Assembly: GCA_040218535.1 (NCBI GenBank) | Contig: JAVJRG010000012.1 | Span: forward strand, 1,550,001-1,614,000 | Length of the DNA: 64,000 nucleotides | Reading direction: 5' to 3' | Origin: Lacipirellulaceae bacterium | Lineage (GTDB): Bacteria > Planctomycetota > Planctomycetia > Pirellulales > Lacipirellulaceae | Shown here: positions 22,239 to 41,334 of the stretch, piece by piece | Layout: each line of letters opens with the position of its first letter | Numbering within the stretch: the stretch's first letter is position 1 | Made by a program: the position numbers and the translations under genes | Notes under the pieces: model-generated | The model's database searches: none | What the model was told of the DNA's origin: nothing | What the model saw: the letters and a program-made list of their open reading frames with translations, nothing else

Positions 22239-22312
22239 GGCGGTGTAGCTCAGCTGGTTAGAGCAGCGGAATCATAATCCGCGTGTCGGGGGTTCGAGTC
22301 CCTCCACCGCTA
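22239..22312 (+). tRNA. tRNA with anticodon CAT (Met elongator or Ile2)
   Basis: A 74-nt cloverleaf without encoded CCA. The acceptor stem GGCGGTG pairs with CACCGCT (one terminal G-U). The D arm is GCTC-AGCTGGTTA-GAGC. The anticodon stem GCGGA/TCCGC holds the loop ATCATAA, giving CAT. The T arm has TTCGAGT. Its 3' half is the attachment site of a 19-kb island and is duplicated at 41268-41334. Met versus lysidine-modified Ile2 identity cannot be fixed by eye. Confidence 0.95.
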
Positions 22313-23721
22313 CTTGTGTCTGTGGACGCATCTTCTCGCATATCATCGCGTAACGTCGCACTGTGACTAGGTTTGTGCGAACTCTCTGACGCTATCTTCT
22401 GATCGTTTTCGTCGCATCGTTTCGCACTGCTTCGCACGCTAACGCGTCCTAACTGCTGCGCCATGTGCTGCGCCTCTTCTTCATCTCCGACGCGCAGATC
22501 GTCGGTACCCGTCGCTTGAAGTTGAGTAGGCGACACAGGATTGAAGATCTCTCCAAGGCGAGAGACGGCTTCCGCTTCCTGCCCAGGGAAGAGGTGTCCG
22601 TAGGTGTCCATCGTCAAAGTAATGGTCGAATGCCGCATCACGGTTTGCACCGTTTTGATGTGAACGCCCTGCATGGCCAGCCAGGCACCACAAGTATGTC
22701 GAAGACAGTGAAAGTCGAAAGTTTGACCGTCGCTGTTCTCTGCCGCTAAGAAGTCGCTCTGCTCTCGCTTCAGCCTTTCGTTAGGGTCCTTACTCACCGC
22801 CTTGATCCATTGCTTTCTTGCAGCTACAAGGTCTTCCCTGAGCATGCGTGCTAGGTAAGTCTCATGCGGGAATGAAAAGACAGGTGCCTTAAGAGTCTTC
22901 GTTGCGATTAGGTCCTTCAACTCTGCCGCTAATTCGCTCTGAATGTACTGTCTAGCATTCTTGCGATTCTTCGTTGAGCCAGCGACACAGGTGACATAAG
23001 GCTGCTCCAGGTCAAGGAACAGATTGCCACGAGTTAGACTACGCAGCTCATTGGAACGTAAGCCCGTTTGAATCGCCGTACGATAAAGGACCAGTCGTTC
23101 CTTGGCTCTCATTCCATATCGCTCAGGCCCTGCGGCAGTGGCTGTCTCAAGCCAGCCCCACTCCTCAGGCAATAGCATTCGTCGTTCGGTTCTTCGATCC
23201 CCCTTGGGATTGGGCTTCTTCACGGAAAGCAACGGATCGCGTGGGAGCTTGTGATGGGATGCGAGCCACTTAGTGAAGGCAGTAATAGCATTCAGATGAG
23301 CGCCAATTGTCCTCGCCGATCGTGATTTGTCACGGAGATGAGCCGCATAGCGATTGACTCCATCTGCCGTGATGTCTGATGCAACTTCAAATCCAGCAAA
23401 CTCAGCGATCCAGAGGATGAATTTGAGCGTGCTCTCAATATGCTTGTCAGTGCGGTTTGCGGCGCGAAGCTTGTTCTCATAATCCTCTAAATGAGCCTTG
23501 ATGGAACGACTTGCCTGCTGGCTGATTTCATCCAGTGCCGAGTCGACAACACCTTCGCGACGCAAAGCCACCTCTGCCTCCAGCTTCCTCGCGATCCGCT
23601 CAGCAACCGCCTTGTCGGTAGTCCGAGTCGATTTGCTCCGGCGTTTCCCGGTGTGGTCGTACCATTGCACGTGGTAGGGTCCCTTGGCTTTGGGGCCGCC
23701 ACGCTTAAAAACTGTTGCCAT
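22258..23721 (-). CDS. Tyrosine recombinase/integrase whose end lies in the tRNA
   Basis: 487 residues. An Arm/SAM-like N-terminal DNA-binding domain (to about 165) precedes the catalytic domain with R222, H338, R341, H364 and Y374 (TGLRSNEL, HCLRHT, MDTYGHLFPG). A roughly 105-residue hydrophilic tail follows. The last 23 codons lie in the attachment repeat, where tRNA antisense encodes SGGGTRTPDTRIMIPLL; the TAA stop is in the D arm of the tRNA. The frame would continue into 41091-41279 if the island were circular (see findings). It directs site-specific integration and excision. An HTH gene ends 3 bp upstream. Confidence 0.95.
   Translation of the reverse strand: MATVFKRGGPKAKGPYHVQWYDHTGKRRSKSTRTTDKAVAERIARKLEAEVALRREGVVDSALDEISQQASRSIKAHLEDYENKLRAANRTDKHIESTLKFILWIAEFAGFEVASDITADGVNRYAAHLRDKSRSARTIGAHLNAITAFTKWLASHHKLPRDPLLSVKKPNPKGDRRTERRMLLPEEWGWLETATAAGPERYGMRAKERLVLYRTAIQTGLRSNELRSLTRGNLFLDLEQPYVTCVAGSTKNRKNARQYIQSELAAELKDLIATKTLKAPVFSFPHETYLARMLREDLVAARKQWIKAVSKDPNERLKREQSDFLAAENSDGQTFDFHCLRHTCGAWLAMQGVHIKTVQTVMRHSTITLTMDTYGHLFPGQEAEAVSRLGEIFNPVSPTQLQATGTDDLRVGDEEEAQHMAQQLGRVSVRSSAKRCDENDQKIASESSHKPSHSATLRDDMREDASTDTSSGGGTRTPDTRIMIPLL
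22264..22330. repeat. attL: 67-bp direct repeat at the tRNA 3' end
   Basis: Identical to 41268-41334 except for one base (T at 22317, C at 41321). It covers the anticodon arm, T arm, acceptor 3' strand and 18 bp beyond the tRNA. Flanking bases differ on both sides (G/T at 22263/41267 and T/A at 22331/41335), which fixes the limits. The repeat is the expected product of tyrosine-recombinase integration into a tRNA. Confidence 0.95.
22451..22473. repeat. 23-bp exact repeat, left copy (possible recombinase arm site)
   Basis: Exactly the same 23 bases occur at 41202-41224 in the same orientation. The left copy lies inside the integrase gene, where it encodes AQHMAQQ. In a circular form the two copies would flank the 67-bp core, the arrangement of arm-type recombinase sites. 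Function is inferred. Confidence 0.5.
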
Positions 23722-23724
23722 GTT

Positions 23725-23943
23725 CTACCTTTCCTTCTTGCTTCGCAGCTCTAATTGAAAGTATTTGGCCAGCTTATCAGCCATATCAAGGCGCAAGCTC
23801 CCTTCACCTCTCGCAAATCTCATCAACGACTGTCGCTTCACTCCGGTCTCACGTTCTAATTCCTTGAACGATGCTGGGGAGTCATTGATTTTCCTGCGTA
23901 GGACATCGCTCAGTGTGTCGAAGGATCGTTGATTCTTAGGCAT
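23725..23943 (-). CDS. Small HTH regulator, likely for integrase/excision
   Basis: With the ATG at 23943 the protein has 72 residues (MPKNQRSFDTLSDVLRRKI...). An XRE-like helix-turn-helix is formed by SFKELERETGVKRQSLMRFARG and a following LRLDMADKLAKYFQLEL helix pair. It ends 3 bp before the integrase start, so it is surely co-transcribed. Control of integrase expression or directionality is the likely role. A slightly longer form from an upstream in-frame codon would overlap the previous gene. A TTGACA box lies just upstream on the minus strand (near 23979). Confidence 0.75.
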   Translation of the reverse strand: MPKNQRSFDTLSDVLRRKINDSPASFKELERETGVKRQSLMRFARGEGSLRLDMADKLAKYFQLELRSKKER

Positions 23944-23965
23944 GCAATAGTTTTTACATGCCATG

Positions 23966-24205
23966 CTAGTCAATGTCAAATCGTATTAGTTCCTTGTCAT
24001 CATTTGGGCGGTATCCAATGAATGCTCCACATCGACGACATGTGGTTCGGATCCAGCCTGGGCGTTCGGGAGCAGGCTCATCTTTCCAGTGAGAGCTGTC
24101 GACATGAGACGGGCACCGAGTTTGGTTTTTTACGACGGTAGGATTTGGAGGTTTTTGGTTCCAAGCCGCTTGCAACTCAGCAAGTACATTAGGAGGAGTA
24201 TACAT
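23966..24205 (-). CDS. Small putative zinc-binding protein, 79 aa
   Basis: I do not know a named family. The peptide holds CPSHVDSSHW and CRRCGAFIGYRP, giving two Cys/His clusters that could bind one zinc ion, with PERPGWIRTTCRRCG between them. The start ATG at 24205 follows an AGGAGGAG-free but purine-poor region on the minus strand, so the start is less certain. It is the first gene behind the repeat-rich spacer 24206-24363 and probably opens the operon leading to the integrase. Confidence 0.65.
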   Translation of the reverse strand: MYTPPNVLAELQAAWNQKPPNPTVVKNQTRCPSHVDSSHWKDEPAPERPGWIRTTCRRCGAFIGYRPNDDKELIRFDID

Positions 24206-24229
24206 ACCAGTAACATGTTTCTTGTTTAG

Positions 24230-24267
24230 GGATCCGCTGTCCGCGTAGCGGACGCAAAAGCGGATCC
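24230..24267. repeat. Nested hairpin upstream of the regulator-integrase operon
   Basis: Outer arms GGATCCGCT (24230-24238) and AGCGGATCC (24259-24267) are perfect complements. Inside them GTCCGC (24239-24244) pairs with GCGGAC (24248-24253). The structure could be a cruciform, a terminator for the replication operon, or part of an origin. No T tract follows on either strand. Confidence 0.6.
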
Positions 24268-24288
24268 TTATGGTCCCTTATGGGAAAT

Positions 24289-24359
24289 AGGAACTAATAG
24301 GTTCCTCAGTAAACGCACCGTAAGTTCCGCAGTGCTTACGAACACATTGGTTCCGCAGT
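24289..24359. repeat. Iteron-like direct repeats and palindrome
   Basis: The decamer GTTCC(G/T)CAGT occurs three times, at 24301-24310, 24324-24333 and 24350-24359, spaced 23 and 26 bp. The first copy also forms a palindrome with AGGAAC (24289-24294). Spacing near two helical turns next to replication genes recalls plasmid iterons or operator arrays. The role is inferred. Confidence 0.55.
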
Positions 24360-24363
24360 CAAC

Positions 24364-24765
24364 TTATGTGTCGGGTAATGGCAGAACGCTATAGCGGGAC
24401 GATCCCCGGTTCAAGCCGCCTTGATAGACCACCCTCAACAAGCCTCGTTTCTCTAGGCGTTTAATCGCCTTGGCAGCGCCGCGTACCGAGAGGCCGCCAC
24501 GTCGGGCAATATCAGCTTGTGAAGTGCGAGCCGTACCGTTGCGAGTATCGCGGTAGAGAATCATCCACACAGCAATATCACCCCGGCAGAGCGTCGCTAG
24601 CGTTTCGTCGATGAACTGATTGAGCGTAGCGAAACGGTTGGCGGCTCGCTTGCGGGTTGTCTTAGGCTTGATCTCTGGTTCCCGGCAACTTGTTAGGTTG
24701 CGTGTGTCGGTCGATTCCAAGGGGGGCAGCACTTCGCAGCCGTCGAGTTTAGGGGCTTCGCTCAT
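24364..24765 (-). CDS. Winged-helix DNA-binding protein of the replication cassette
   Basis: 133 residues. A basic, disordered-looking N-terminus leads to a winged helix: WMILYRDTRNGTARTSQADIARR, then GLSVRGAAKAIKRLEKRGLLRVVYQGG, a MarR/HTH_36-like pattern with a wing. Its start overlaps the stop of the upstream ATPase gene by 4 nt. Its stop sits beside the iteron-like repeats. It may bind them as an initiator or as a repressor. No nuclease or ATPase motif is present. Confidence 0.7.
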   Translation of the reverse strand: MSEAPKLDGCEVLPPLESTDTRNLTSCREPEIKPKTTRKRAANRFATLNQFIDETLATLCRGDIAVWMILYRDTRNGTARTSQADIARRGGLSVRGAAKAIKRLEKRGLLRVVYQGGLNRGSSRYSVLPLPDT

Positions 24766-25718
24766 TGCTCGACCCCACTGTTATCGCCGTCGCTGGCCGC
24801 TTCGGTCTGATTCCAGAGATTCGCCAGCGCCGCTGTCAACTTACCGTCGGGCTTGGTTGTTGGCGTTGCGGTTGCGGGCGTGAACGATTGCCGCTGGCGG
24901 TCGAAATGCAACAGCAGGTCGCGGGGCTCGGTGTGGCGTGCTTTTAAGTGCCGCAGGTGAACTGTCTCCGCATCCTTGGCGTCGGGCGTGAGAATGAACG
25001 CATCATCCGCCCCGAACTCCAGCTCGCTACTCTCTCGGAAGCTGGCCAGCGACAACGAATCCCCCGCATAGCTACTGCGGCCTTGCCGATCCTTCTGACG
25101 ACTGACCGCCGCGACGACGATCACGGCCAGCCCCGCGTCGGCAAACTGCCGCAGATAGTTCATCGTGGCATCGACACTGCCGCGGCGGTCGTTGTGCTGC
25201 CCCGGTGGTGTAATGCGTTGGATGTAGTCGAGCGTCAATACGTCCGCCCCGAACGCATCACACGCGGCAGCAATGTTGGCCAGGTCGAACGGCGGACGCA
25301 CGAAACAAAGTCGGTCGGCTATCGCTTCGAGCGTGTTCAACGCTTGGTCGAGCCGATCTGCATGTTGGCCGTCGAGCTTGCGATAGCGAATCGATTCCGC
25401 ATCGATCCCCGAAAGCCTTGCCAGTTGCCGGTCGAGTAGCACGCTAGGCGGCATCTCGATGTTGCACACGCACCAGCGTAATTCGGGATTCAATCGCAGC
25501 CCGTCAATCACGCATTGCATCGTGAACGCGGTTTTCCCTGCCCCCGGTGCTCCGCCGAATAGCGTCACCAGTTTGGGCCCTAGTTCGATGCGAGCCAGTT
25601 CCGCGTCGCCCACTGGATACAGCGTGGGCGGTTGCCCGGTCAGCACGTCGTCACGCCAGGTTGAAAACACGTCGGACGCGCTTTGCCACTTTCCACTGTT
25701 TTGGTCGATGCTGTTCAT
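24762..25718 (-). CDS. DnaB/RepA-like replicative helicase ATPase
   Basis: 318 residues of RecA fold. Walker A is GAPGAGKT (56-63) and Walker B is VLTLDYIQRI near 170. The NIEMPPSVLLDRQLARLSGI segment after strand 2 and a late SSYAGDSLSLASFRESSELEFGAD-type segment are typical of DnaB C-terminal helicases. The DnaB N-terminal domain is missing, as in plasmid RepA-type helicases. It overlaps its neighbours by 4 nt on both sides. It probably unwinds the island after excision. Confidence 0.8.
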   Translation of the reverse strand: MNSIDQNSGKWQSASDVFSTWRDDVLTGQPPTLYPVGDAELARIELGPKLVTLFGGAPGAGKTAFTMQCVIDGLRLNPELRWCVCNIEMPPSVLLDRQLARLSGIDAESIRYRKLDGQHADRLDQALNTLEAIADRLCFVRPPFDLANIAAACDAFGADVLTLDYIQRITPPGQHNDRRGSVDATMNYLRQFADAGLAVIVVAAVSRQKDRQGRSSYAGDSLSLASFRESSELEFGADDAFILTPDAKDAETVHLRHLKARHTEPRDLLLHFDRQRQSFTPATATPTTKPDGKLTAALANLWNQTEAASDGDNSGVEQ

Positions 25719-26710
25719 GGCGTTCCCCCTTCGACTATGACGCGATTCAATCCGCAGTCGATCTGTCGTCGCACTTCACTAGGTGAAAGCCCCGAATCGA
25801 GTGCCGATTCCGTCAGCAACGCATGGGCTAACGCACCAGGGCAACGGAACTCCGCCAGGTTTGCCGCCGCACTGAACAGCAAGCGGTGCCGGTCGCCTAC
25901 GGTCGCCCCGTTGCGTAAGAATTCCAACGTCGCACGGTTGAGCGTCGCATCGCTGGCACCGCTGGCGAGTGCTTGTTGACGTTGCCGCATCGCTTCCCGT
26001 TCGTTTGCGACTTGGTGGGCGGCTTGCTGCCAGTCGCTCATAGCGGTTTGATTCTTGGCGACTAAATTTGTCGGCAGCTCGAACGGTTCGGGCGTCTCGG
26101 CATACTGTGCGATGCGCCCCGTTGCCAAGTGCAACAGTTCCTCGAACTGGAAACGCCGCTTGTGCAGCCCTGTTTTCGGGTGGCGGCTATTGGGGGCTCG
26201 GAAGGCGCGCACGCAATCGTAAACGCCGCTGTCGATCTCGATTCCTGCCAAAGTCGCAACGTGCTCGGCAAACTGTCGGGCGATACGATGAAACAACGCG
26301 GACCCGTCAGGAGTGAACAACGCCGTTGGTAGTCCGACGTGAAACCCCTTGGAGCCGCTGAAGAAAATCAGCAGGGCATCGTCGTCGAGCCGGTAGCGTT
26401 CGATCAGTACCGCGCAGAGCGACTTAGCAGCTTTGTGGGCGTGTTCCAGATCGTCGGCGGCATCAATATCGAACCAGAGCCAGGGCGTCCAGCACGGCCC
26501 GCTATAGCCCTTGGTAGTTCCGGTGGTCGTCAAGTGTTCGCGGAACGCCTCGCCAAACGTGAACGCAGACAAGTACGCTTCTCGCCCCACTTCGGCGCGT
26601 GCGTCGCATTGGCAATAGGCCGAGAAAGCGGCTGGCCAATCGACCAGCCGCCGCTCGCTGCGACAATCTCCAAGAATGCGAAAACCATAGTGGTGAGTTT
26701 CGTTGCTCAT
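25715..26710 (-). CDS. Archaeo-eukaryotic-type (AEP) primase
   Basis: 331 residues. Motif I WFDID (79-83) supplies two metal-binding Asp residues. Motif II is FSGSKGFHVGL with H124. A third acidic residue fits YDCVRAFRAPNSRH near 163-176. These are the three motifs of the AEP/Prim-Pol fold. The C-terminal 120 residues are helical and look like an accessory domain. Together with the helicase and the SSB-like gene it forms a self-contained replication set with 4-nt overlaps. Confidence 0.82.
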   Translation of the reverse strand: MSNETHHYGFRILGDCRSERRLVDWPAAFSAYCQCDARAEVGREAYLSAFTFGEAFREHLTTTGTTKGYSGPCWTPWLWFDIDAADDLEHAHKAAKSLCAVLIERYRLDDDALLIFFSGSKGFHVGLPTALFTPDGSALFHRIARQFAEHVATLAGIEIDSGVYDCVRAFRAPNSRHPKTGLHKRRFQFEELLHLATGRIAQYAETPEPFELPTNLVAKNQTAMSDWQQAAHQVANEREAMRQRQQALASGASDATLNRATLEFLRNGATVGDRHRLLFSAAANLAEFRCPGALAHALLTESALDSGLSPSEVRRQIDCGLNRVIVEGGTP

Positions 26711-27258
26711 TGGTCGCCCCCTTCAGCTTGCAGTTTCGCTGCGCCGAAATTGAACGACGTATCCGCGTCGTCGCCTTGGTCGTCGCTACAGTCGTCCGCC
26801 GGTGCGAACGGGTCCACTTCCGGCGGATCAATTCCTAGAACCTCGAATAGGGTGACGCGATTGAATTCGCTACCGTCGTCGCCCTTACGCAACGCCAGTT
26901 TCACTCGACAACGAATTCCCAACGGCAAGGGTTTTTCGAGCTGTTCTAGAGAAGTAACGCCTAGCTTGTTGAGGTCTCGCTTCGTCATCGGCATGGCTGG
27001 TGCTGTTAACCAAAGTTCGTGCCAAAACAAGCGCCCAAAGAACTCCTTGTTATTCTCCTTGCAATCGATGACTCGGAAAGTGAGTCGATATCCCGGAGTG
27101 TCGTTGCTTCGGCTGTTGATCAACTCACCGCTGGTAATGTGGGCGACGTACTCACCGCTCGGGATCGCAGCGGTTTCACCTGCTGCTTCCGTAGAATCCC
27201 AGGCATTCTTGATTGAATCCAAGCTAGATTGCTGTAAAATATTAGTTAGTTTTCCCAT
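26707..27258 (-). CDS. DUF669-like single-strand-binding protein candidate
   Basis: 183 residues. The N-terminal KNAWDSTEAAGETAAIPSGEYVAHITSGE-type region and PGYRLTFRVIDCKENNKEFFGRLFWHELWL strands fit DUF669, a phage family placed beside helicases and primases. The C-terminal 35 residues are very acidic (DDCSDDQGDDADTSFNFG), like the tails of SSB proteins that recruit partners. It is the first gene of the four-gene replication operon and overlaps the primase by 4 nt. Confidence 0.7.
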   Translation of the reverse strand: MGKLTNILQQSSLDSIKNAWDSTEAAGETAAIPSGEYVAHITSGELINSRSNDTPGYRLTFRVIDCKENNKEFFGRLFWHELWLTAPAMPMTKRDLNKLGVTSLEQLEKPLPLGIRCRVKLALRKGDDGSEFNRVTLFEVLGIDPPEVDPFAPADDCSDDQGDDADTSFNFGAAKLQAEGGDQ

Positions 27259-27303
27259 GATTCGTCTCTCCTAAAGGGTCAATTATTGGGTGAATGTGTG
27301 TTG

Positions 27304-27335: not shown

Positions 27336-27353
27336 ACTCGTGCGGCTCTAGTT

Positions 27354-27557
27354 TTAGTGCTTTCCTCCCTGCAGTTTGGAATAGATGTAGCGACGAAGGT
27401 CCTCAACTGGGTACCGGACTGAACGTCCGATTCTGACGTGAGGGATCTCGCCGCTATTGGTCATCGACCAGAGTTTTCGCTGTGATATCTCAAGCGATTC
27501 CGCTGCCTGAGCAGGCTTTAGCAGTATCCGTGTTTGCTGAGAATTTTTCGATTTCAT
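27354..27557 (-). CDS. AlpA/excisionase-like MerR-type HTH protein
   Basis: 67 residues. RILLKPAQAAESLEISQRKLWSMTNSGEIPHVRIGRSVRYPVEDLRRYI is the HTH_17/AlpA pattern (here residues 11-60): helix-turn-helix, short wing and basic RIGRSVRY strand. Such proteins act as excisionases or activators in mobile elements. It lies upstream of the replication operon, from which it is separated by a hairpin and 95 bp. Confidence 0.82.
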   Translation of the reverse strand: MKSKNSQQTRILLKPAQAAESLEISQRKLWSMTNSGEIPHVRIGRSVRYPVEDLRRYIYSKLQGGKH

Positions 27558-27670: not shown

Positions 27671-27703
27671 GCAAGGACAAGCACGGCAAGGCACAAAGTC
27701 GCA

Positions 27704-28620: not shown

Positions 28621-31600
28621 CTAAGCCGATGCTGAATACACTGGCGAAGGAACTCGCGGGTAGGCCCGCACGACGTGCCGGAAAACTTCATCAGCTCGCA
28701 TGCGCACCTCGGTCTCCTCGTAGGCATCAACTGGCAATCCGGTATCGTCGCTGTAAAGGAAGTCGTGAATGGCCAGGCTTACAGCATCTCTAGTCGCTTC
28801 CTTTTCTGTCCATTGGTCCACGCGCAGCTTCTCTGCTTTGAGAGTTTCGAGTAACTCCACAGCGACTTGCTTAATGCGTTTAATATCGACGGCAGTCAGG
28901 TCATCCTTCTTGAGCAAATCAAAGATTGCCAATGACTCTTCATCCAACCCTTCGCTGACCGCTCGCTGGGCTTCCTCGTCAAGTTCCTGTACTAATTGAA
29001 GCAGCGCTTCAAACGTCCGCTCAATAGTGACCTGGTCCTTGTCGCTGTTGTACTCTGCTACCACTTCCTCGTAATGCAGTTGCAAATCAGTGCGCAGTGG
29101 ATTCTGCTGCAATAACATCGCGAGCCGTTGCTCGACTGCTTGCCTAAGGTTCTGAACCGTTGTTTGCCTTGCTGGTGTACGTGCGAATTCCTGCTTGAGG
29201 CGTTCAAAGTCGATTCGGCTAATATCGTACGGCTGCGATACGTCGTCTCGTGCGGAAGGGGTCGTCTCGATCGCTTCGTCGACAACTTTGTGAAGCTGGC
29301 GAATGATGTCGCTGATGTCCGCCTGTTCACGATCCTTCATCAATGACTTGTAGACGGCATTGATTGCATCTCGGTCCTCGCGGTAAGCATTGATTCCCTC
29401 CACATTGAGGCATGCCTTGAACTTCTTAAACACCACACGGCACATGATTTCGAATCGCTTACGCGACTCGTCATTCTCATTCGCAGCTTCCTTGCAAGCG
29501 ACGATCGCAGCGGTGATAGCGTATCCGCTACTCTTGATAACTTTCTCTAACGGAGCGTTGCGATCACTGAGATAGGTTTGGACATAGTTGATAGCCTCAG
29601 CTAGCTCAGCCAAGAGTTCTTCGTCGGGTCGGGCTGGTTCAATTTCGCCATCATCCTCACCGGTACCCGCACCTGCGAAAGTCGCCAGTGCTTTGCGAAG
29701 GTGTCTCAGAATCCCACAGTAATCGACGATCAGACCGTTGTTCTTGTCTTCGTGAATGCGGTTGGCCCTAGCAATCGCCTGCATAAGCGTGTGGGCCTTC
29801 AGCGGCTTATCGAGATAGAGCGTTGATAGACTAGGCACGTCGAACCCGGTCAACCACATCGCACAAACAATCGCAACTCGGAACGGATGTTTCTCCTCCT
29901 TGAAAGCTTCGTCCAAGTCCATCCGCTGCATTTCACGAAACTCAGGCCTCTCACGCATCGCATCGGGCAGCTCAATGCCTTCTTTCACTAGCCGCCGATG
30001 TGGCGTGATATCGAGGCCCCACTTCCTGAAATTATCGACTTCGCCCTGATCTTCGCTGACCACCACCGCTGACCGAGTTTCTTGCATCCAGCTAATCTGC
30101 CTTTTCAAGTAAGCCAGTTCTTGCTCATCCGCTGTCTGAGAAAGGCTCTTTTCAAGGGCTGAGATGCGAGCATTCCAGTGCTTCTCAATTAGGGCGTGCA
30201 TGCGGACGCATGTAACCTTGTCGATGCATACCAACATCGCCTTGCCGGTTTCCCACGCTGTGGAGTAGTGCTGCACAAAGTCCTGAGCAATCTGATCAAG
30301 TCGCTTTTCAGCAGTGATCACGTGGTAGTCACGTTTTAGCTCTTGCTCTAGCCGTTGCTGCACGTCGATGTCTTCGGTCTCTAATTCCTCCAACTTCGCC
30401 GCGACGCGCTCGTTCAGATCGCCGATAGCCACTCCCAGGTCATCGCCGCGGGCATCATAGTACAGTGGAACCGTCGCGTTATCATCCACTGCCCGCTGGA
30501 AATCGTAGGTCGATACATAGCTGCCAAACACTCGTCGGGTAATCTCGTCATCGCCAAACAAAGGAGTGCCGGTAAAGCCCATATAGCTGGCATTCGGCAG
30601 GGCGTTACGCATGTTCAGAGCCAAGGTGCCGTACTGCGTCCGATGGGCTTCGTCCGTGATGACAATGATATCGTCTCGCTGGGTGTACCCTTGCTCGGGA
30701 GCGACATCCTGATTGAATTTCTGAATCAGAGAAAAGACATAAGCCTTGTGCTGACTCAGCAACTGTCTCAGGCGCGTCCCGCTATCGGCACGGCAGGGGT
30801 CGCTATCGTTGTCCACGACACCGCAGCCCGCGAATGTTTTATAGATTTGGTTGTCGAGATCAGTCCGATCCGTCAGCACCACGAAGGTAAAGTTGCCGCC
30901 AAGCTTACGACGCACTTTGCGGGTAAACATGACCATCGAGTAGCTCTTTCCGGCTCCCTGCGTGTGCCAGAAAACCCCGAGCTTGCCTTCGCGATCCTCT
31001 CGCTCACGGACTGCTTGGACGGCCTGATTGACGCCGAGAAACTGATGGTTGCGAGCCAGGATTTTGATCGTCTTCCCCGGCGAATTGTCGAAAAGGATGA
31101 AGTTCTCAACTAGATCGAGAAAGTTTCGCTTCTGACAGACGCCACGCAGCACGGTCTCCATATCGACAACGCCAGGCTCTTGCTCTTCCAGACGCTTCCA
31201 GTCGTTGAAGTGCTCCCACTGACTAGTCAGCGAGCCAACCTTTGCCTTCTCTCCGTTTCCGAACATGACCACCGCGTTGTGGTGGAATATATGCGGAATC
31301 GTATCCTTGTAGTCTGAAAAGTTCTCTTCAAAGGCTGCTCGCAGATTGCGATGCACTCCTTTGCACTCGATGAACAGCAGTGGGATTCCATTAACGAAGC
31401 CGATAATATCCGCCCTCCGGCGGTAGAGGTCTCCACGGACCCACAATTCCCTGACGCACAGAAAGTCATTCTGCTCCGGATCGTCGAAGTCAAACACGCG
31501 AAGTCGTCTTTGGACTCGCTCGCCCTTGTCGTCTCGATAGCGAACCTTGACGCCATCGACGAGCAATTCATACTTCTCTCGATTCGCCAAAACGAGGCTT

Positions 31601-31854
31601 TGTGCTGCCTCAACTTCCACAAGCTGGCGAACGGCATCGTCGTAAGCTTCTTCAGGCAAACGAGGATTCAGATCACGGAGCTTGCCGCGCAACACTCGTT
31701 TTAGGACCACTTCCCGATCGGAGTCTCGCCCCAACAGGCCGTCGCTGCCGAAGGTTTCCTGGTTGTACGCATAGACCGATCGCCAGCCGAGCTGATGCTC
31801 GAAACACTCCGCGGTCGTCCGCTGTACCAGGTTGTCTTCATCATACCGAGGCAT
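28621..31854 (-). CDS. hsdR: Type I restriction enzyme, motor/nuclease subunit HsdR
   Basis: 1077 residues, usual HsdR length. The N-terminal PD-(D/E)XK nuclease shows DIIGFVNGIPLLFIECKG with its E-x-K (ECK). The SF2 translocase has motif I GAGKSYSMVMF, motif II DEAH (ITDEAHRTQYG), motif III GFTGTPLF, and ARANRIHEDKNNGLIVDYCG near motif VI. A helical C-terminal domain for HsdM/S contact follows. HsdR pulls DNA toward the bound complex and cuts at a distance. It lies 27 bp behind the DUF262 gene, not directly behind hsdS. Confidence 0.96.
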   Translation of the reverse strand: MPRYDEDNLVQRTTAECFEHQLGWRSVYAYNQETFGSDGLLGRDSDREVVLKRVLRGKLRDLNPRLPEEAYDDAVRQLVEVEAAQSLVLANREKYELLVDGVKVRYRDDKGERVQRRLRVFDFDDPEQNDFLCVRELWVRGDLYRRRADIIGFVNGIPLLFIECKGVHRNLRAAFEENFSDYKDTIPHIFHHNAVVMFGNGEKAKVGSLTSQWEHFNDWKRLEEQEPGVVDMETVLRGVCQKRNFLDLVENFILFDNSPGKTIKILARNHQFLGVNQAVQAVREREDREGKLGVFWHTQGAGKSYSMVMFTRKVRRKLGGNFTFVVLTDRTDLDNQIYKTFAGCGVVDNDSDPCRADSGTRLRQLLSQHKAYVFSLIQKFNQDVAPEQGYTQRDDIIVITDEAHRTQYGTLALNMRNALPNASYMGFTGTPLFGDDEITRRVFGSYVSTYDFQRAVDDNATVPLYYDARGDDLGVAIGDLNERVAAKLEELETEDIDVQQRLEQELKRDYHVITAEKRLDQIAQDFVQHYSTAWETGKAMLVCIDKVTCVRMHALIEKHWNARISALEKSLSQTADEQELAYLKRQISWMQETRSAVVVSEDQGEVDNFRKWGLDITPHRRLVKEGIELPDAMRERPEFREMQRMDLDEAFKEEKHPFRVAIVCAMWLTGFDVPSLSTLYLDKPLKAHTLMQAIARANRIHEDKNNGLIVDYCGILRHLRKALATFAGAGTGEDDGEIEPARPDEELLAELAEAINYVQTYLSDRNAPLEKVIKSSGYAITAAIVACKEAANENDESRKRFEIMCRVVFKKFKACLNVEGINAYREDRDAINAVYKSLMKDREQADISDIIRQLHKVVDEAIETTPSARDDVSQPYDISRIDFERLKQEFARTPARQTTVQNLRQAVEQRLAMLLQQNPLRTDLQLHYEEVVAEYNSDKDQVTIERTFEALLQLVQELDEEAQRAVSEGLDEESLAIFDLLKKDDLTAVDIKRIKQVAVELLETLKAEKLRVDQWTEKEATRDAVSLAIHDFLYSDDTGLPVDAYEETEVRMRADEVFRHVVRAYPRVPSPVYSASA

Positions 31855-31881
31855 ACTTTTCTACTCTAATCAGCGGCTCGG

Positions 31882-33981: not shown

Positions 33982-34177
33982 GCTTCTCTCTTTGGATTCA
34001 TCCCTTTAATGCTCAATGCAAGACTTGAAAATGCCATCTACGACTTTGTCACTGGTTGTGAGGGAGTGATCGACGCAGGTGTCTGTGAGTTTGAAAACCA
34101 ATGCTCTCTAGCAGCCAAGGGGGGCGAAAATTGCGTATAACCGTCATTTTTTCTCATCTCACGAGGGACTTCTATGT

Positions 34178-34245
34178 TTGTGTACGGGCTGAGTGTCGAA
34201 AGGCATCTTGTGTACGGCAGAACGCATTTTGTCGTACACAAGATG
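34178..34245. promoter_or_regulatory. Operator-like repeats between the Fic and DUF262 genes
   Basis: TTGTGTACGG occurs at 34178-34187 and 34208-34217. The second copy lies in a perfect 13-bp inverted repeat, CATCTTGTGTACG (34204-34216) with CGTACACAAGATG (34233-34245). The 302-bp spacer holds no gene. The block could control the DUF262-hsdR unit or terminate the hsdM-fic unit. Repetition on both strands favours a protein-binding site. Confidence 0.6.
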
Positions 34246-34283
34246 TTTTGTCGCCATTACATTAGGCGCTATGTGTCCGCAGC

Positions 34284-35396
34284 TCAGAGAACTTTCTTCC
34301 CTTCCGCAATGTTGATCAGGTCAGCAAAGGCGTAAATCGCCGGTCGCCTCCCAGACCCCTGGCGGAGAACTCGAATGACGCCCTGATCGGTCAACGCCCT
34401 AAGTAAATTGTTCGCCGTGCCACGATTCTCGATGCCACTCAGTTTGGAGAAGTCGCCACTGTTCAGCACCGGACGATTGAAAAAGGCATCGAGTACAGCC
34501 GAGGCATACTGCGAATGAGTGGCTTCTACGACCTGGCTCTTCATCGAATCGTAGAGGTCGTGAATTTGCTTCGCTTTGTCGTTGTTGCGAACTGCCTGCA
34601 CTTCAATCGCTTTTAGGAAAAACTCGATCCAACCCTGCCAGTCCCCGTTATCGGTGATTACTTTCAGTCGATCGCGATACTCTTGGTCGGCTTCGGCCAA
34701 GTACTCGCTGAGGTAGAACATGGGCCGTTGCAAGACTTGTTTCTGGTAGAGCAGCAGTGGAATCAGCATTCGTCCCAAACGGCCGTTGCCGTCATTGAAG
34801 GGATGGATAATCTCAAACTGGCCATGGACGACCGCCAGTTGCACCAGCGGGTCAGTATCGTCAAGGGCGATGTATTGCTCAAAGTTCTCCAGCGCGTCGA
34901 GCATCTTCGCTGGCGAGGGGGGCACAAAGCGGGCCTGGTCGATGGTCTGGCCGGACTTGCCAATCCAGTTTTGCGTGGTGCGAAAGGCACCTGGCGTGCA
35001 ATCACCGCCCCGCACATTGTCCATGAGTAACTGGTGCAATTCGCGCATCAACGCCAGCGACAGCGGTCGATGCTCAAGCGCCCCTTCTCCGACGAGTAGT
35101 GCCTTTCGATAATTGAGCACCTCGTGAATGTCGTCCTGCTTCTCTGGATCGTACTGCTCGCCCGCCTCGTGTTGTAGCACTTCGGTAAGCGACGCCTGCG
35201 TGCCCTCAATCCGGGATGAGAGCACCGCTTCCTGGCTAGTCATTGGCGAGAGCAATACCGCCGGATTGATCATGCTGGTGAGCGTGCCATCGTATCGGGC
35301 TAGTGGCAACATTGCTCGGCTGCTGAACCGAGCTAGCCGCTCCCAGTTCAATCCGCTCAGGGGCAACAAATCAGGTAGGCAAGGTGACTTACTCAT
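34284..35396 (-). CDS. Fic-domain protein (class II, probable AMPylase) in the hsd operon
   Basis: 370 residues. The active motif HPFNDGNGRLGR is complete at 198-209, so catalysis is expected. An N-terminal inhibitory helix motif SSRIEGT lies at 60-66, the class II arrangement in which a Glu blocks ATP. A C-terminal winged helix follows (SGIENRGTANNLLRALTDQG). Fic proteins transfer AMP to hydroxyl groups of target proteins. The start overlaps the hsdS stop by 4 nt, so it is translationally coupled. Regulation of the restriction complex is an inference. Confidence 0.92.
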   Translation of the reverse strand: MSKSPCLPDLLPLSGLNWERLARFSSRAMLPLARYDGTLTSMINPAVLLSPMTSQEAVLSSRIEGTQASLTEVLQHEAGEQYDPEKQDDIHEVLNYRKALLVGEGALEHRPLSLALMRELHQLLMDNVRGGDCTPGAFRTTQNWIGKSGQTIDQARFVPPSPAKMLDALENFEQYIALDDTDPLVQLAVVHGQFEIIHPFNDGNGRLGRMLIPLLLYQKQVLQRPMFYLSEYLAEADQEYRDRLKVITDNGDWQGWIEFFLKAIEVQAVRNNDKAKQIHDLYDSMKSQVVEATHSQYASAVLDAFFNRPVLNSGDFSKLSGIENRGTANNLLRALTDQGVIRVLRQGSGRRPAIYAFADLINIAEGKKVL

Positions 35397-36517
35397 ACGG
35401 CAATCTCCCCGCTCATTAGCCGCGGCAGCAACAAGTCGCGGGCGACACTGAGGAATTCTGAATGCTTTGTAAGCTGATCGATCTGCTTTTGCACCGCGGC
35501 GACAGCTCTTTCGAATAGATCGAGTAGAGTGCTGTTTGGAACCACTACTTTACGACTATGCGCATAGTCGCGATTGAGGCCTGGAACTGCCACATCTGTA
35601 TTGATGAACTTCGTGTTCAACAAGGCGTAATAGAGGTAGTGACTACAATCTTCAGGCTCGATGAAGTACACGGTATCGATCGGATGAAAATCACTGCTAC
35701 TCCAAAACACACTCCCTACATTGCCTTTCCGACCAACGATAATTCCTGGTCCCTTGACTAGTGCCTTGGTGTGAGTGCCAACAATTCCGCTAGACCCAAA
35801 GACAGGAAACTCGCCGGGGATACGGCTTTCCTTTTTCAATGCCTTACCATAGTGAAACGGGGCAATATCCTTCAGCGGCTTCCGCTCCCACCCCTCCGGC
35901 ACACCGTCTTTGATCTTCACGTGCTCATGCCCGGGGAAGCGGAGGTGGACGAACCACTCCTTGTACAGCAGCCGCGCCGACTGCTCCAACAACGCAATCC
36001 GCCGCCGGTTGTTCTCGATGAGATTGTCGTAGGCGGAGAGGATGTCCGCGATGCGCGATTGAACAGCAATATTTGGGATCGGGAACTTTAGGGAGAGCAA
36101 CTTTGACTGGCTCAGGTTATCCTGCGCGGCACCCTGCGTGAACTGTTTGAAACGCTTCTGAAGTAATGCGTCAAAGAGGTACTTGATAAAACGGCCGTCT
36201 GCTTCTTTGTCATTGGGTTGAAAACCTATAACACTGTCCGGAAAGCACGCGTCAATACCTAGAATCGCTGTGTCGGCGATGTTCGCCGCAATCGTGATGC
36301 AAAGTGTGCCGGCTGGCCATAGCCGACTCTGTGCCAGTCCCGCCTCGCTGTAGGTTTGCGAATAGCGGGAGAGAGTTAGACCAGCATGCTTTATGTCGCC
36401 AGTTTGTACAAACGGGTAAGGGCCCCCGTACAGATGTGCAGCATCGCGGGGCCGATGACGTGAACGTCCCCTGCTGACGTATCCTAATTCGTCGAGACTC
36501 CTTGATGCCCAATTCAT
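35393..36517 (-). CDS. hsdS: Type I restriction specificity subunit HsdS
   Basis: 374 residues with two target-recognition domains. The first spans about 1-150 (LDELGYVSRGRSRHRP..., QDNLSQSKLLSLKFPIP), the second about 195-340 (GWERKPLKDIAPFHYGKAL..., GLNRDYAHSRKVVVP). Each is followed by a conserved helix (QSRIADILSAYDNLIENNRR and ERAVAAVQKQIDQLTKHSE) that sets the spacing of the bipartite site. It reads the DNA sequence for HsdM and HsdR. It overlaps both neighbours by 4 nt. Confidence 0.95.
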   Translation of the reverse strand: MNWASRSLDELGYVSRGRSRHRPRDAAHLYGGPYPFVQTGDIKHAGLTLSRYSQTYSEAGLAQSRLWPAGTLCITIAANIADTAILGIDACFPDSVIGFQPNDKEADGRFIKYLFDALLQKRFKQFTQGAAQDNLSQSKLLSLKFPIPNIAVQSRIADILSAYDNLIENNRRRIALLEQSARLLYKEWFVHLRFPGHEHVKIKDGVPEGWERKPLKDIAPFHYGKALKKESRIPGEFPVFGSSGIVGTHTKALVKGPGIIVGRKGNVGSVFWSSSDFHPIDTVYFIEPEDCSHYLYYALLNTKFINTDVAVPGLNRDYAHSRKVVVPNSTLLDLFERAVAAVQKQIDQLTKHSEFLSVARDLLLPRLMSGEIAV

Positions 36518-36981
36518 AGCTGCGAAACCTCAACACAGCCACCATTGGCGTACCAGGTGTAACTAACACCTTCTGCTCTGAGATTCAAATACACTCCAAG
36601 CTTGAATCGGAAATCTCCTTGATCGGTAGTGGCCCCCTTTAGTTTTCTGTCGTCGTCATCATTAGCCAACACTGGCTGATTCTTCTTCAGTTCAACAATT
36701 AGGAGATTGTGATCGTTGCTTTGCCTTCTATGAACGATAATGTCAGGACGCTTCCCTTCCTCTTCGGGGACTAAGCGTTTCACCTCATTCATGTTTTTAT
36801 TGTATTCAATGTCTACGTGGTAACTGTGCTTGCAGCGGTGACCCATCCCTTCAGCGATGTAGCTAGCTAAGTGATGAGAAATAGCGACTTCGTGCACGCC
36901 TCTTTCAATCAGAGAGTCATCGTTCTTATACAATTGATCCACGGCATCGCGTACCAATCCCATTAGCTCTTGCTGATTCAT
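36514..36981 (-). CDS. PD-(D/E)XK-like protein inserted between hsdM and hsdS
   Basis: 155 residues. The candidate nuclease core is RPDIIVHRR with D80, followed by LLIVELKK with E97 and K99, the D-x(16)-ExK spacing of the PD-(D/E)XK fold. The N-terminal helix carries VHEVAISHHLASYIAEG. This resembles small restriction-associated or Holliday-resolvase-like proteins. It overlaps hsdM and hsdS by 4 nt on each side, so it is translated as part of the restriction operon. Whether it cuts DNA is unproven; I do not know a named family for it. Confidence 0.7.
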   Translation of the reverse strand: MNQQELMGLVRDAVDQLYKNDDSLIERGVHEVAISHHLASYIAEGMGHRCKHSYHVDIEYNKNMNEVKRLVPEEEGKRPDIIVHRRQSNDHNLLIVELKKNQPVLANDDDDRKLKGATTDQGDFRFKLGVYLNLRAEGVSYTWYANGGCVEVSQL

Positions 36982-39092
36982 ACCCCCAACTCCTCGAAGT
37001 TCTTTTTGATCCTCGCCGCCAATTCGACGGCTTCGGAGTTCAGATCGTTCAGCTCAACGTGAATCTCCCGTAGGGCGTCTTCAAAATCAAAGTCCTCGTC
37101 CACTTCCTCGGGGGCGACGCCCACGTAGCGTCCGGGGGTGAGGCTCCAGTCGTTGGCTTCGAGTTCCGACTTGTCGACTAACTTCACGAGACCTTCCACA
37201 TCGCAGAGCTTGGCGTCGGGGAAGCGTTCGACCAGCCAGTGGGCCTGTCGCCAGAAGTAGCGGACTTGCTTGAGCGACTCGACGGCAAGCTGCCGAGTGG
37301 CGTCCGCCTGTTTGCGGGCCGTGTTGATTTCGCTTCGCGGCCAAAGGTCGTTTGCCTTGGCGTCGCAATCGCCTTCGCAAGTTTCGATCAGCCGAGCAGA
37401 AAGCTTGTACAGCAAGTCCGCCTGCTTCACCAGCCCGCGGCTCGACTCGGCGAGCGGCTCCGACTTTTCGGTGAGCTTCTTGAGCGCCGCCGCACTGTCG
37501 GGGGCCTGCTCCCACTGCTTCGCTAGTTTCTCAAGATCATCGTGGAACGCGGTTGAGTCGCTTGCGAATAGCTTTTGCTCTTTCTCCAGTTCTTTGAGCG
37601 TCTCCGCATGGGGGCCTTCCTTGGAGAGCGTCTCCAAGAACGGCTGCATCAGACTGTGAAGCTCAGCAAGGGCACGCTCGAAATCGGGCAACGGGTGTAG
37701 TGGGTCCTCGTCGTCCGGCTCCCATTGGAAGCAGCCAAAGCCCTCCTCGATCATCCGACCCAGGTATCCCGACCACAACTCCAGGAAACGCGATTGCTCA
37801 TCGCGGTACAGCCACACAATCGCCAGCAAGTTCTGCTCTTGCTCAGGGCTGAAGTCGTAAATCTTCCGCGTGACTTTGCGATACACATTGCGGGCGTCAA
37901 TCATCAGCACCTTGTCTTGGTGCTTGGCGGGCTTGTCGCGGTTGAGGAACCACAGCTCGCAGGGGACACTCCGCGTGTAGAAGAAGTTGCTGCGGATGGC
38001 GATCATCAGATCGACATCGCCCGTTTCCACGAGCTTCTGCCGCACCTTCGCCTCATCCCGCCCGGCACTACTCGCCTGGGAAGACATGACAAACCCGGCC
38101 CGCCCCCGCTCGCTCAGGTAGGAATAAAAGTAGCTGATCCAGACGTAGTTGCCGTTAGAGACTCGCTTCTCTTTGTTCACGCCGGGTAGGCCAAAGGGCA
38201 GCCGCGGGTCGGCCTTGATCTTCTCCGCATCGATCTCGTCGACATTGAACGGCGGGTTGGCCATCACATAGTCCGCCTTGCCCACCAGCTCGTGCGGCGC
38301 TTCGTAGTAGGTGATCGCCTTCTGAATGTCACCTTCCAGGCCGTGGACCGCCAGGTTCATCTTGGCGAGCCGGATGGTCGTACCGTTTTTTTCCAGCCCG
38401 CGAAAGGTGAGCCGCTCGGTCGGGTTTTCGCCTTGCTCTTCGACGATGCGAGCACTTTGCACAAACATCCCGCCACTGCCACAGGCCGGATCGAGCACGG
38501 TCCCACCGGTCGGTTCGAGAACGTGGGCAATCAGGGAGACGATCGAAATAGGCGTGAAGAACTCACCCCCATCATGTGCCTTCTGGTCAGCGAACTGTGT
38601 GAGGAAATACTCGTAGATGCGACCGAAAACATCACCGGAGACTTTCTTCAGCTCATCAGGATTGAGCGTCCGCAAGAGTCGCCCGAGGACCTCGTTGTCC
38701 AGTTCTTGGTAGTCCTGCTTCGGGAGGCTGCCGCGCAGGCTGGTGTAGTCCTGTTCGATCGAGTCCATCGCCTCGATAATGGCCCGGGCCCGATCTGCGT
38801 CGTCGGGCAACCCCACCAAGTAATCGAATTGAGCTTTCGGGCTCAAAAAGATCGCACTCTTTTGGGAAAAGTCGCCCTTTTCGAGTTCCCGCTTTTTCCC
38901 TCCGCGCGAAGGCAAGTTGGCCTCGATCTCGTCTTTGACTTTCAAGAAACGGCTGTAGGCATGCCGGAGAAAGACGAGCCCCATCACGGGGAAGAAGTAT
39001 TCGTTGCTAGCGTAGTTGGAGTTGGAGCGGAGCTGATCAGCAGCGGACCAAAGGCGTTTCTCGATCGCTTCAATGTGTTCAAGTTGGGGCAT
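36978..39092 (-). CDS. hsdM: Type I restriction-modification methyltransferase subunit HsdM
   Basis: 704 residues, longer than the typical 500. An HsdM N-terminal helical domain (SNEYFFPVMGLVFLRHAYSRF) is followed by the SAM site DPACGSGGMF (201-210) and the catalytic NPPF (279-282), the N6-adenine pattern. The extra roughly 200 C-terminal residues are a charged helical region with a long coiled coil (about 470-640). It starts the operon hsdM, PD-(D/E)XK, hsdS, fic. The extension may be an enlarged HsdS-contact region. Confidence 0.95.
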   Translation of the reverse strand: MPQLEHIEAIEKRLWSAADQLRSNSNYASNEYFFPVMGLVFLRHAYSRFLKVKDEIEANLPSRGGKKRELEKGDFSQKSAIFLSPKAQFDYLVGLPDDADRARAIIEAMDSIEQDYTSLRGSLPKQDYQELDNEVLGRLLRTLNPDELKKVSGDVFGRIYEYFLTQFADQKAHDGGEFFTPISIVSLIAHVLEPTGGTVLDPACGSGGMFVQSARIVEEQGENPTERLTFRGLEKNGTTIRLAKMNLAVHGLEGDIQKAITYYEAPHELVGKADYVMANPPFNVDEIDAEKIKADPRLPFGLPGVNKEKRVSNGNYVWISYFYSYLSERGRAGFVMSSQASSAGRDEAKVRQKLVETGDVDLMIAIRSNFFYTRSVPCELWFLNRDKPAKHQDKVLMIDARNVYRKVTRKIYDFSPEQEQNLLAIVWLYRDEQSRFLELWSGYLGRMIEEGFGCFQWEPDDEDPLHPLPDFERALAELHSLMQPFLETLSKEGPHAETLKELEKEQKLFASDSTAFHDDLEKLAKQWEQAPDSAAALKKLTEKSEPLAESSRGLVKQADLLYKLSARLIETCEGDCDAKANDLWPRSEINTARKQADATRQLAVESLKQVRYFWRQAHWLVERFPDAKLCDVEGLVKLVDKSELEANDWSLTPGRYVGVAPEEVDEDFDFEDALREIHVELNDLNSEAVELAARIKKNFEELGV

Positions 39093-40125: not shown

Positions 40126-40962
40126 CTACGACGTCTCGCAGAGTGCCTCGCCAATGAGTGGTCCCATCGATTTGCAGTACTGATCGAGAAACCGCTTACC
40201 AGCATTGCGAGCGCCGCATGGATAGGCAGGTGCTGGCTTTCTATGCCTGCGAAGCTGTTCGCGGAGGCCGTCCACGCATGCAGTTTCTTGACGAATTTCT
40301 TCGTCGCCTTTAATAGCGGCATTGCTAGGAAAAAATAGCTGAGTATCGCTCCCTACACACTCTTCTAATACACGAACAATTCGAGGTTCGTCCAAATCGG
40401 GCTTGTAGCTATCTCCCCAGCCGAATACTACAAATCGAAGGCGCTCTTTGCCGCGGGGGAGGTGGGGGACATCGTCAGTGTCCTTTTTCGATTTAACGAG
40501 TTCTCTCCACATTCCTAAGGCACAGCCTGCGTTCAGAGCGTCCCTAATGTACGCAAGGTTCAGAATCTGGATATAGGCATGCTTCTTTAGTTCATTTTCT
40601 ACCGCTTTGCTTTTAGCATGCACTACCCCCAAGGCGTGGTCGAGCACCTTTTCCAAGTGTGGGAGTAGCCTCTCATCGTTGTATGTAAGAGCACCCCAGG
40701 GCGCACTCTTACTTCTCTCCTCTATTGGCTTAGCGGTACCTGGATTGATCAAGAAGAAGGCTCCGACACAGTGACCAAACTCTTCGTCGATGTTTACGCT
40801 TTGTTGGTCAAAATACATTCTCGTATCCGAGCGTCGCTCGAAGCTAATGCTCATTTTTTCGGTTTGAAAGGCACCAAAGACACGAGCCATCTGCAAACTC
40901 TCCAATGAACCATCGGTGTGTAGCGCGCCTGCATTGGCAGTCTGCGGGGCGAAGACGAGCAT
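40126..40962 (-). CDS. Orphan protein near the right end of the island, 278 aa
   Basis: I do not recognise the family. The protein is soluble with no signal peptide or membrane segment. It has an N-terminal beta region (SISFERRSDTRMYFDQQSVNID), a helical middle (AVENELKKHAYIQILNLAYIRDALNAG) and a strand LRFVVFGWGDSYKPDLDEP. The C-terminal 60 residues are basic. It is the rightmost full-length gene of the island, first in transcription order, and separated from hsdM by 1 kb. A defence role is possible by position only. Confidence 0.6.
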   Translation of the reverse strand: MLVFAPQTANAGALHTDGSLESLQMARVFGAFQTEKMSISFERRSDTRMYFDQQSVNIDEEFGHCVGAFFLINPGTAKPIEERSKSAPWGALTYNDERLLPHLEKVLDHALGVVHAKSKAVENELKKHAYIQILNLAYIRDALNAGCALGMWRELVKSKKDTDDVPHLPRGKERLRFVVFGWGDSYKPDLDEPRIVRVLEECVGSDTQLFFPSNAAIKGDEEIRQETACVDGLREQLRRHRKPAPAYPCGARNAGKRFLDQYCKSMGPLIGEALCETS

Positions 40963-41090
40963 GTATTGTAGCAGTGCAATAAGCAGTTTCCTCAGTTCTG
41001 CTTACGAGTTCTAGCGGCCCGCAGATCTAGGCGTCACGACAGGGAGCACTTTCAAGCGATTTGAGAATAATGAGAACGCTTCCCGCCTTT

Positions 41091-41279
41091 TCACGTCGAT
41101 CGCACCATCGCCATGATCCCGGCTTTGACAGCATTAGGCAGGTCCGACCACTTCTCGATGACACTCTGCAACTCGGGGTCTATGGGGGCAATTTCTCGTA
41201 CAACTGCTGCGCCATGTGCTGCGCTTGCCTCAAAATCTTCGTCTTTCCCCTGGTTTAAGCCACTATTCAGCGGAATCAT
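41091..41279 (-). pseudogene. Detached C-terminal tail of the integrase reading frame
   Basis: The frame from the repeat (41268-41279, encoding MIPL) runs open to a stop at 41091-41093. It is in the same frame as the integrase in the left repeat copy: both ATG codons are 19,004 bp apart. In the excised circle the integrase would lose its final Leu and stop and gain 58 residues ending SVIEKWSDLPNAVKAG plus IMAMVRST. The WxxLPxxxKAxIxAMV ending is, from memory, typical of full-length planctomycete integrases. In the integrated state it has no obvious start of its own. Confidence 0.7.
41202..41224. repeat. 23-bp exact repeat, right copy
   Basis: Identical to 22451-22473 and in the same orientation, 44 bp from the attR core. 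Here it lies in a different reading frame from the left copy (AAHGAAV rather than AQHMAQQ), so conservation of the DNA, not of the peptide, is suggested. Confidence 0.5.
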
Positions 41280-41334
41280 AATCCGCGTGTCGGGGGTTCG
41301 AGTCCCTCCACCGCTACTTGCGTCTGTGGACGCA
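41268..41334. repeat. attR: second copy of the 67-bp tRNA-derived repeat
   Basis: Matches 22264-22330 at 66 of 67 bases. Only the 3' part of the tRNA is present, so no functional tRNA is encoded here. Confidence 0.95.

Follow-up and report, generated by a model that had tools for sequence, protein, structure and literature searches.

A tRNA attachment site that appears to lie inside a bacterial integrase gene, with a conserved C-terminal tail separated from the integrase in the integrated copy

Results and discussion

The attachment site, the integrase and the tail

Here we analysed a stretch of 64,000 nucleotides (the window) from a Lacipirellulaceae bacterium (GCA_040218535.1, contig JAVJRG010000012.1, positions 1,550,001 to 1,614,000; genome G000, contig C12 in our handles). 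It holds an element of about 19 kb between its attachment (att) cores, inserted in a transfer RNA gene, tRNA-Met(CAT), which is the one tRNA in the window. The features that define the two ends, among them a tyrosine integrase and an open reading frame (ORF) that we call the tail, are listed here with window positions:

22239-22313, forward strand: tRNA-Met(CAT), the target gene (ARAGORN); 5' part host DNA, 3' part att core
22258-23721, reverse strand: ORF of the tyrosine integrase in its integrated form, 487 residues, ending in the host half of the tRNA
22264-22330, no strand: integrase-end att core; exact over 22264-22316 (53 bp), 66/67 bp overall
41268-41334, no strand: tail-end att core, repeating 22264-22330; exact part 41268-41320
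41091-41279, reverse strand: tail ORF, 58 residues beyond the core, continuing the integrase frame, with homologues in relatives

The integrase is read antisense into tRNA-Met and its stop codon (TAA, 22258-22260) lies one codon past the core, in the host part of the tRNA. The match to the catalytic domain PF00589 covers residues 212-377 of 487 (Pfam, expectation value E 2.1e-14), and this region is whole in the integrated copy. When 23721-22264 is joined in silico to 41267-41091, the join falls between two codons and yields a single 544-residue frame, with 486 residues through the core and 58 of the tail. A sequence-only reading of this stretch had proposed that the attachment site carried by the element (attP) lies inside the integrase gene; its coordinates, its stop codon, its codon-boundary junction and its 544-residue fusion were all recovered when recomputed, and the repeat that it gave as 67 bp is exact over 53 bp and agrees at 66 of 67 positions, the sole mismatch of the extended core being at 22317. 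Its statement that only a tail beyond the catalytic tyrosine is exchanged also agrees with the whole PF00589 region of the integrated copy.

An open frame of 58 codons is by itself weak evidence. The continuation goes beyond chance because the tail is conserved in relatives, because the core stands in the same frame in both parts of 14 of 14 integrase and tail pairs, and because natural unsplit genes join the two parts; on these grounds (homologous tails, frame agreement, unsplit genes) a chance open frame was rejected.

Integrase and tail pairs in related genomes

A search with the fused protein gave matches in 26 of the 43 genomes of the family. The 14 pairs comprise that of the window and 13 more from 12 related genomes, and they were collected in two batches. 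The first consisted of the window and 12 combinations, seven of which shared at least 18 bp; in G000, G001, G009, G010, G042, G005 and G041 the tail used ranked first among the tail matches of its genome, and that of G033 was picked by position. The second consisted of 11 guesses by position in largely complete genomes, made with a tail profile without the core, and a core was found in six of them among the PF00589 matches listed, so that partners may be missing.

The frame of the core is equal in integrase and tail in all 14 pairs, and because the profile of the second batch did not contain the core, the agreement there (6/6) was not built into the selection. The frames of both parts are open through the shared stretch in the pairs; in G001 the stretch measured was an arm repeat and not the core, since the longest repeat of this genome is the arm, which was flagged as lying in a different frame. 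Across the 14 pairs, 69-108 residues separate the core from the end of the PF00589 match, and in 12 of them both parts are on one contig, on the same strand and in the order expected of a cut circle, 7.7-57 kb apart, while in G041 integrase and tail are on two separate contigs. The genes called at the integrase end vary from pair to pair (tRNA-Met, Lys, Arg, Ser and transfer-messenger RNA, tmRNA). The integrated integrases of G000, G001, G041, G005, G042, G009 and G033 have an ORF that includes the catalytic domain and runs without a stop into the tRNA.

G001, a genome of the same genus, has on one contig an integrase 64% identical to that of the window and a separate tail 57 kb away. Its integrase lies at a tRNA-Met whose neighbouring host gene is also the one found in the window, and therefore one tRNA-Met site holds two diverged elements of the same build, one in G000 and one in G001. 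No empty copy of the site was found among 38 matches to the flanking host gene, 30 loci of which were examined and three of which had a tRNA-Met: those of G000 and G001, both occupied, and a third (L239) whose tRNA position was not compared.

The position of the attP core inside the gene is the reason why integrases of this kind end in antisense tRNA peptides (GGGTRTPDTRIMIPLL and similar). Related integrases of other genomes (L018, L021, L024 and L025) adjoin tmRNA genes, and two of them (L021 and L025) end in RRRESNPRP-like peptides that resemble the ends of tmRNA read antisense; switches of target seem to be common among these integrases. The integrases of L041 (G037:C85) and of the virus contig L102, described below, end in or cross peptides like APLAQLAEQLTLNQ or GVAQLASASDCG, which look like the 5' half of a tRNA read in sense; in these genes the core would have a second orientation.

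Unsplit genes in virus contigs

Virus contigs were scanned with several profiles: A1 gave no loci, A3 two (L102 and L103), A4 none, and A5 71 loci, four of which were examined (L151-L154). Two of the contigs carry an integrase gene joined to a tail. The first, L102 (IMGVR_UViG_3300035133_000029), is 9,200 bp long with a 99-bp overlap of its ends that covers the integrase side, a tRNA-like half and the tail side; the half looks by eye like tRNA-His, and ARAGORN calls no complete tRNA in it. Across the joined ends the integrase has 539 residues with the tail at its end, and we read the overlap as the attP-type junction of a circle rather than as two att ends. L102 also encodes a major head protein, a small terminase and a DnaB-like helicase, and is possibly a capsid-encoding satellite.

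The second, L154 (IMGVR_UViG_3300036717_000070), is a 49-kb phage contig whose 528-residue integrase is unbroken from its start to the tail and passes through a stretch that by eye resembles a tRNA T-arm. The gene is flanked by primase/helicase on one side and by the terminase large subunit on the other, and it is the only unsplit gene among the four A5 loci examined. In L103 the tail stands at the contig start. The sequence-only reading had suggested looking for the tail fused to integrases elsewhere and had named a complete lack of such fusions as a refutation; the outcome speaks against refutation, as L102 and L154 are such genes, with integrase, core and tail in one protein; together with the junction frame and the 14 pairs they support its placement of attP inside the integrase gene. 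The idea that the tail is the remnant of an older neighbouring element was rejected for the paired cases by the common core and frame and by L102 and L154.

Direct repeats around the core

The core of the window is flanked by two copies of an arm-like repeat:

22451-22473, reverse strand: integrase-side copy of an arm-like direct repeat (23 bp), 134 bp ahead of the core; identical to 41202-41224 and read AQHMAQQ in the integrase frame
41202-41224, reverse strand: tail-side copy of the arm-like direct repeat, 43 bp beyond the core; read as AAHGAAV, in a different frame

This repeat was equalled by none of 60 block shuffles, and the best repeat between the integrase side and the tail side beats all 60 shuffles in 12 of the 14 pairs, those of G005 and G472 being equalled or beaten by one of 60 each. 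Placement is similar in 13 of the 14 pairs (125-190 bp before the core and 42-70 bp after it; 60 and 182 bp in G472), and flanking repeats also occur 130 and 55 bp from the stretch taken as core in L102 and 128 and 32 bp from that in L154, for which no shuffles were run. In 11 of the 14 pairs the reading frame of the repeat differs between the two sides. The constraint on the repeats acts on the DNA and not on the protein, and their arrangement would fit arm-type integrase sites. In the region 9040-9500 of L151, the virus contig nearest to the integrase of the window, the integrase stops before a core, and an AQHFAHQL-like reading downstream of it hints that arm-like DNA may have been kept in this contig without a tail.

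The tail as a protein motif

The part of the tail that is conserved lies at its end:

41094-41189, reverse strand: conserved two-helix end of the tail, APIDPELQSVIEKWSDLPNAVKAGIMAMVRST (AlphaFold2 and codon test)

AlphaFold2 predicts helices at residues 35-42 and 49-61 of the 62 modelled for the window, with predicted local distance difference test (pLDDT) values of 86-97 in this block and of 52-55 over the first 30 residues. In a block of 27 codons compared among 42 tails, which include those on kinase and other ORFs, codon positions 1, 2 and 3 account for 32, 20 and 48% of the differences. The median ratio of nonsynonymous to synonymous substitution rates (dN/dS) is 0.36 (463 of 861 pairs, those with dS below 1.5), a value biased downward, towards constraint, as the tails were found by protein similarity. 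A tryptophan (W) and a leucine (L) are invariant in the 33-row and in the 35-row alignment, and the last residues vary (RST, SEA, TCD, EYR; the tail of the window ends MVRST). The tail of the window matched none of the families in Pfam, NCBIfam or PHROGs; 35 tails searched against Pfam gave three families with one member each, and the tail profile matched no PDB chain.

The integrase of L154 is predicted by AlphaFold2 to have three strands and a helix at its N-terminus followed by helical and catalytic domains, then a region of pLDDT <50 at 382-492, which is encoded by attP, and finally helices at 495-506 and 509-521. The best Foldseek matches of this model, the one structure searched in this way, were the integrases of mycobacteriophage Brujita and of lambda (1z1b). 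The integrase of L022, whose neighbouring tRNA lies outside the gene, keeps a related end (E 1.4e-4 in a set of 84 sequences that included 80 shuffles, none of which matched).

Similar ends were also seen on other proteins. Two protein kinase-like ORFs of 498 and 488 aa, L092 (G390:C274) and L093 (G368:C30), end in the two-helix tail, that of L092 being DPDLAKIIEIWAKLPDGIRVGIMAMVNSAAP; either a host gene serves as att site in these cases or the motif has been reused. In L119 (G474:C14:55000-57073) an ORF that by eye resembles the C-terminal portion of a large serine recombinase continues, without a change of frame, through a tRNA-like core peptide to the tail.

Distribution of the tail

The counts of prevalence rest on a tail-only profile (A2) of 31 positions without the core. 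Our first profile (A1) included the core peptide; many of its matches lay at E about 0.001-0.003 and are probably tRNA genes read backwards. At E<=1e-3, A2 matched 228 of the 397 class genomes; when only the 339 with completeness of 90% or more and contamination of 5% or less are counted, it matched 201. In the phylum, where at least 90% completeness was asked, 82 of 294 genomes matched at E<=1e-4. Among the matches listed, most tails stand in short frames.

When 70 distinct tail loci were scanned for a tyrosine integrase signal within 1.2 kb upstream, seven had one, and in five of these seven the signal was in the frame of the tail (L064, L084, L095, L096 and L124, that of L084 with an intervening stop). 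The other 63 had no integrase signal; they include L120 and L125, which look unsplit by eye, and L068, which had too little sequence, and seven further loci gave no tail call. Some genomes hold several orphan tails, as G001 with six tail matches and G407 with two on one contig (G407:C1:1519250 and 1546592), which suggests many past integrations. The consensus tail had no match in plasmids or phages, the fused protein searched against plasmids only gave a single weak Clostridioides match, and a search of the genome_contigs set gave one weak locus, unrelated.

Interpretation and alternatives

The reading that we prefer, and to which we give a probability of roughly 70%, is that attP lies inside the integrase gene, that the tail is switched by integration and that it serves the circular state, most likely by favouring integration. 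At the level of sequence, the data establish how the gene and attP are arranged, that this arrangement recurs, that the tail is conserved as coding sequence, and that unsplit copies exist naturally in other elements. The element would carry a whole attachment site (arm, tRNA-identical core, arm) in frame within the 3' part of its integrase gene. In the circle the unbroken gene would then encode a lambda-type integrase with a C-terminal two-helix motif on a long disordered linker, the linker being what the DNA of attP encodes. Recombination with the tRNA would cut the gene at the core, so that the integrated integrase takes its stop codon from the host half of the tRNA and keeps its catalytic domain intact, while the tail is orphaned at the far end; excision would rejoin the two. 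A disordered linker could tolerate any tRNA-derived peptide and so allow a change of target without harm to the enzyme.

Both forms of the integrase are probably made and active, and the tail presumably works in the circle only. If it favours integration or is otherwise needed before it, the integrated form would be biased to excision dependent on a recombination directionality factor, or to quiescence. As to its role our guess is that the tail is an accessory module of the integrase made from the circle and contributes to the direction of the reaction, favouring integration being most likely, with a degron or a restraint next. We regard as tentative, and as somewhat short of an even chance, the broader proposal that a large set of the phages, satellites and islands of Planctomycetota use integration as a switch of recombinase form, in which the long form of the circle with its two-helix module drives integration and deletion of the module leaves a form suited to excision. 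If true, this would be a bacterial, non-suicidal counterpart of the archaeal SSV integrases with directionality built into gene structure.

Several observations weigh against the reading that we prefer. The circle junction of the window element itself was not seen, and the unsplit genes belong to other elements. The integrase of L151, 59% identical to that of the window, ends without core or tail, its record holds no tail match anywhere, and no tail was found in L152 or L153, which have related integrases. Five of the six G005 tails had no core in common with the one G005 integrase tested, five of the 11 positional guesses of the second batch shared no core with the integrase tested, and seven of the 12 same-contig pairs were picked partly by position (G033 and six of the second batch). 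No tRNA was called at the integrase end of G409 and G472, whose cores (19 and 17 bp) are among the shortest. Some integrated integrases are damaged, that of G010 being without its N-terminal part and that of G016 having an internal gap. The bias in dN/dS is a further such point, as is the occurrence of the motif at the ends of two kinase ORFs and of a serine-recombinase-like ORF, since it may have other uses.

Among the alternatives, the tail could be an inhibitory or degron-like module, the integrase of the circle being short-lived or restrained until integration removes the module and stabilises the protein. We consider this unlikely, although it has a precedent in the BPs-type phages, which are described as having the same geometry, with 33 C-terminal residues lost on integration, a long form that is degraded and a short form that is active (PMC4557955). 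The end of the tail is, however, a predicted helical hairpin with conserved W and L rather than a short C-terminal tag, and its last residues are variable.

The frame across attP might also be kept only because the DNA of attP must lie there, the residues of the tail being functionless. Strong DNA-level repeats flank the core, the linker is predicted to be disordered and the related L151 has no tail, as would be expected in this case. We nevertheless judge it improbable, because the conserved block lies beyond the tail-side arm and shows the third-position excess and the (downward-biased) dN/dS of about 0.36, because core and tail are in one frame in 14 of 14 pairs, and because L022 keeps a related end with its tRNA outside the gene.

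Still less probable is a separate small gene at the far end, made when the element is integrated, whose product would act in trans, such as a peptide that sets directionality or partners another protein. An in-frame ATG in the core (41277-41279) and orphan tails with short open frames of their own would suit such a gene; there is, however, no sign of a dedicated start (no systematic test was made), the frame often runs on upstream into core and host sequence, and the natural unsplit genes join the tail to the integrase. Least probable of all is a truly suicidal integrase in the SSV sense, split and dead with excision left to another intact integrase, to which attP inside the gene and the damaged copies of G010 and G016 would lend themselves, because in seven integrated copies an ORF that includes the catalytic domain reaches the tRNA uninterrupted and the window holds a candidate excisionase.

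Comparison with known systems

The integrases described here resemble lambda-type (heterobivalent) integrases that target tRNA genes in having PF00589, a core with flanking repeats and a restored tRNA, and the N-terminus of the L154 model looks like an arm-binding domain. In lambda-type systems attP normally lies beside the int gene and not in its frame, whereas here it would lie within the integrase frame.

With the archaeal SSV-type integrases (SSV1, pTN3, pT26-2) they share an attP in the integrase gene that is cut by integration and restored by excision. The splitting of SSV-type suicidal integrases is described as leaving two inactive parts, and one account reports self-disrupting recombinases exclusively in archaea and names the Phage_integr_3 domain (PF16795) for the SSV-type group (PMC8371274). 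The present integrases are bacterial, and their catalytic part stays whole in the integrated copy with only the tail lost; PF16795 was not matched among Pfam hits at E<=0.1 or, in another scan, E<=0.01. The parallel with SSV1 drawn in the sequence-only reading is thus sound for attP inside the gene and fails for the consequence, as SSV integrases lose function on splitting and here the catalytic part remains.

In the BPs-type mycobacteriophages attP is described as lying in the repressor gene, whose lost end carries an ssrA-like tag (PMC4557955), and an attP inside a repressor gene is also described in PMC9934374. As in this integration-dependent immunity, the integrated form here would be C-terminally shorter, so that the state of integration would be recorded in the protein itself; unlike in BPs, this protein is the integrase, and the lost end is a two-helix motif. 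Haloarchaeal pleolipovirus-like proviruses are reported to have a separate coding sequence across attP, just downstream of the integrase (PMC7911831); they share with our case a protein for which the circle is the sole possible template, and differ in that the spanning sequence is separate from the integrase gene. We found no report of attP inside a bacterial integrase gene in the literature searched, a weak absence, as subscription journals and bioRxiv were thinly covered.

An attP inside the integrase gene of many bacterial genomes, with the catalytic part unbroken, makes the evolution of such genes easier to understand, and it raises the testable question of whether the loss of a defined 30-residue motif sets the direction of recombination. 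In addition, an orphan tail with its core offers a way to locate the far ends of such islands.

Gene content of the island

Between its two ends the element of the window carries the following:

23725-23979, reverse strand: small helix-turn-helix (HTH) regulator adjoining the integrase (Pfam HTH_3, E 2.6e-5)
24762-27258, reverse strand: replication genes for a DnaB-like helicase, a primase and an SSB-like protein, the last a weak match (E 0.0013) (Pfam, PHROGs)
27354-27557, reverse strand: HTH_17 protein, candidate excisionase (Pfam HTH_17, E 5.5e-13; phrog_66 'excisionase and transcriptional regulator', E 1.7e-8)
28621-39092, reverse strand: defence cargo, with type I restriction-modification (HsdR, HsdS, HsdM), a GmrSD-type protein and a Fic protein (Pfam)

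Just inside the tail end an ORF of 278 aa (40126-40962) has only a weak DUF4172 match (E 0.016). This gene content suggests an integrative island that derives from a phage or a satellite and carries defence genes.

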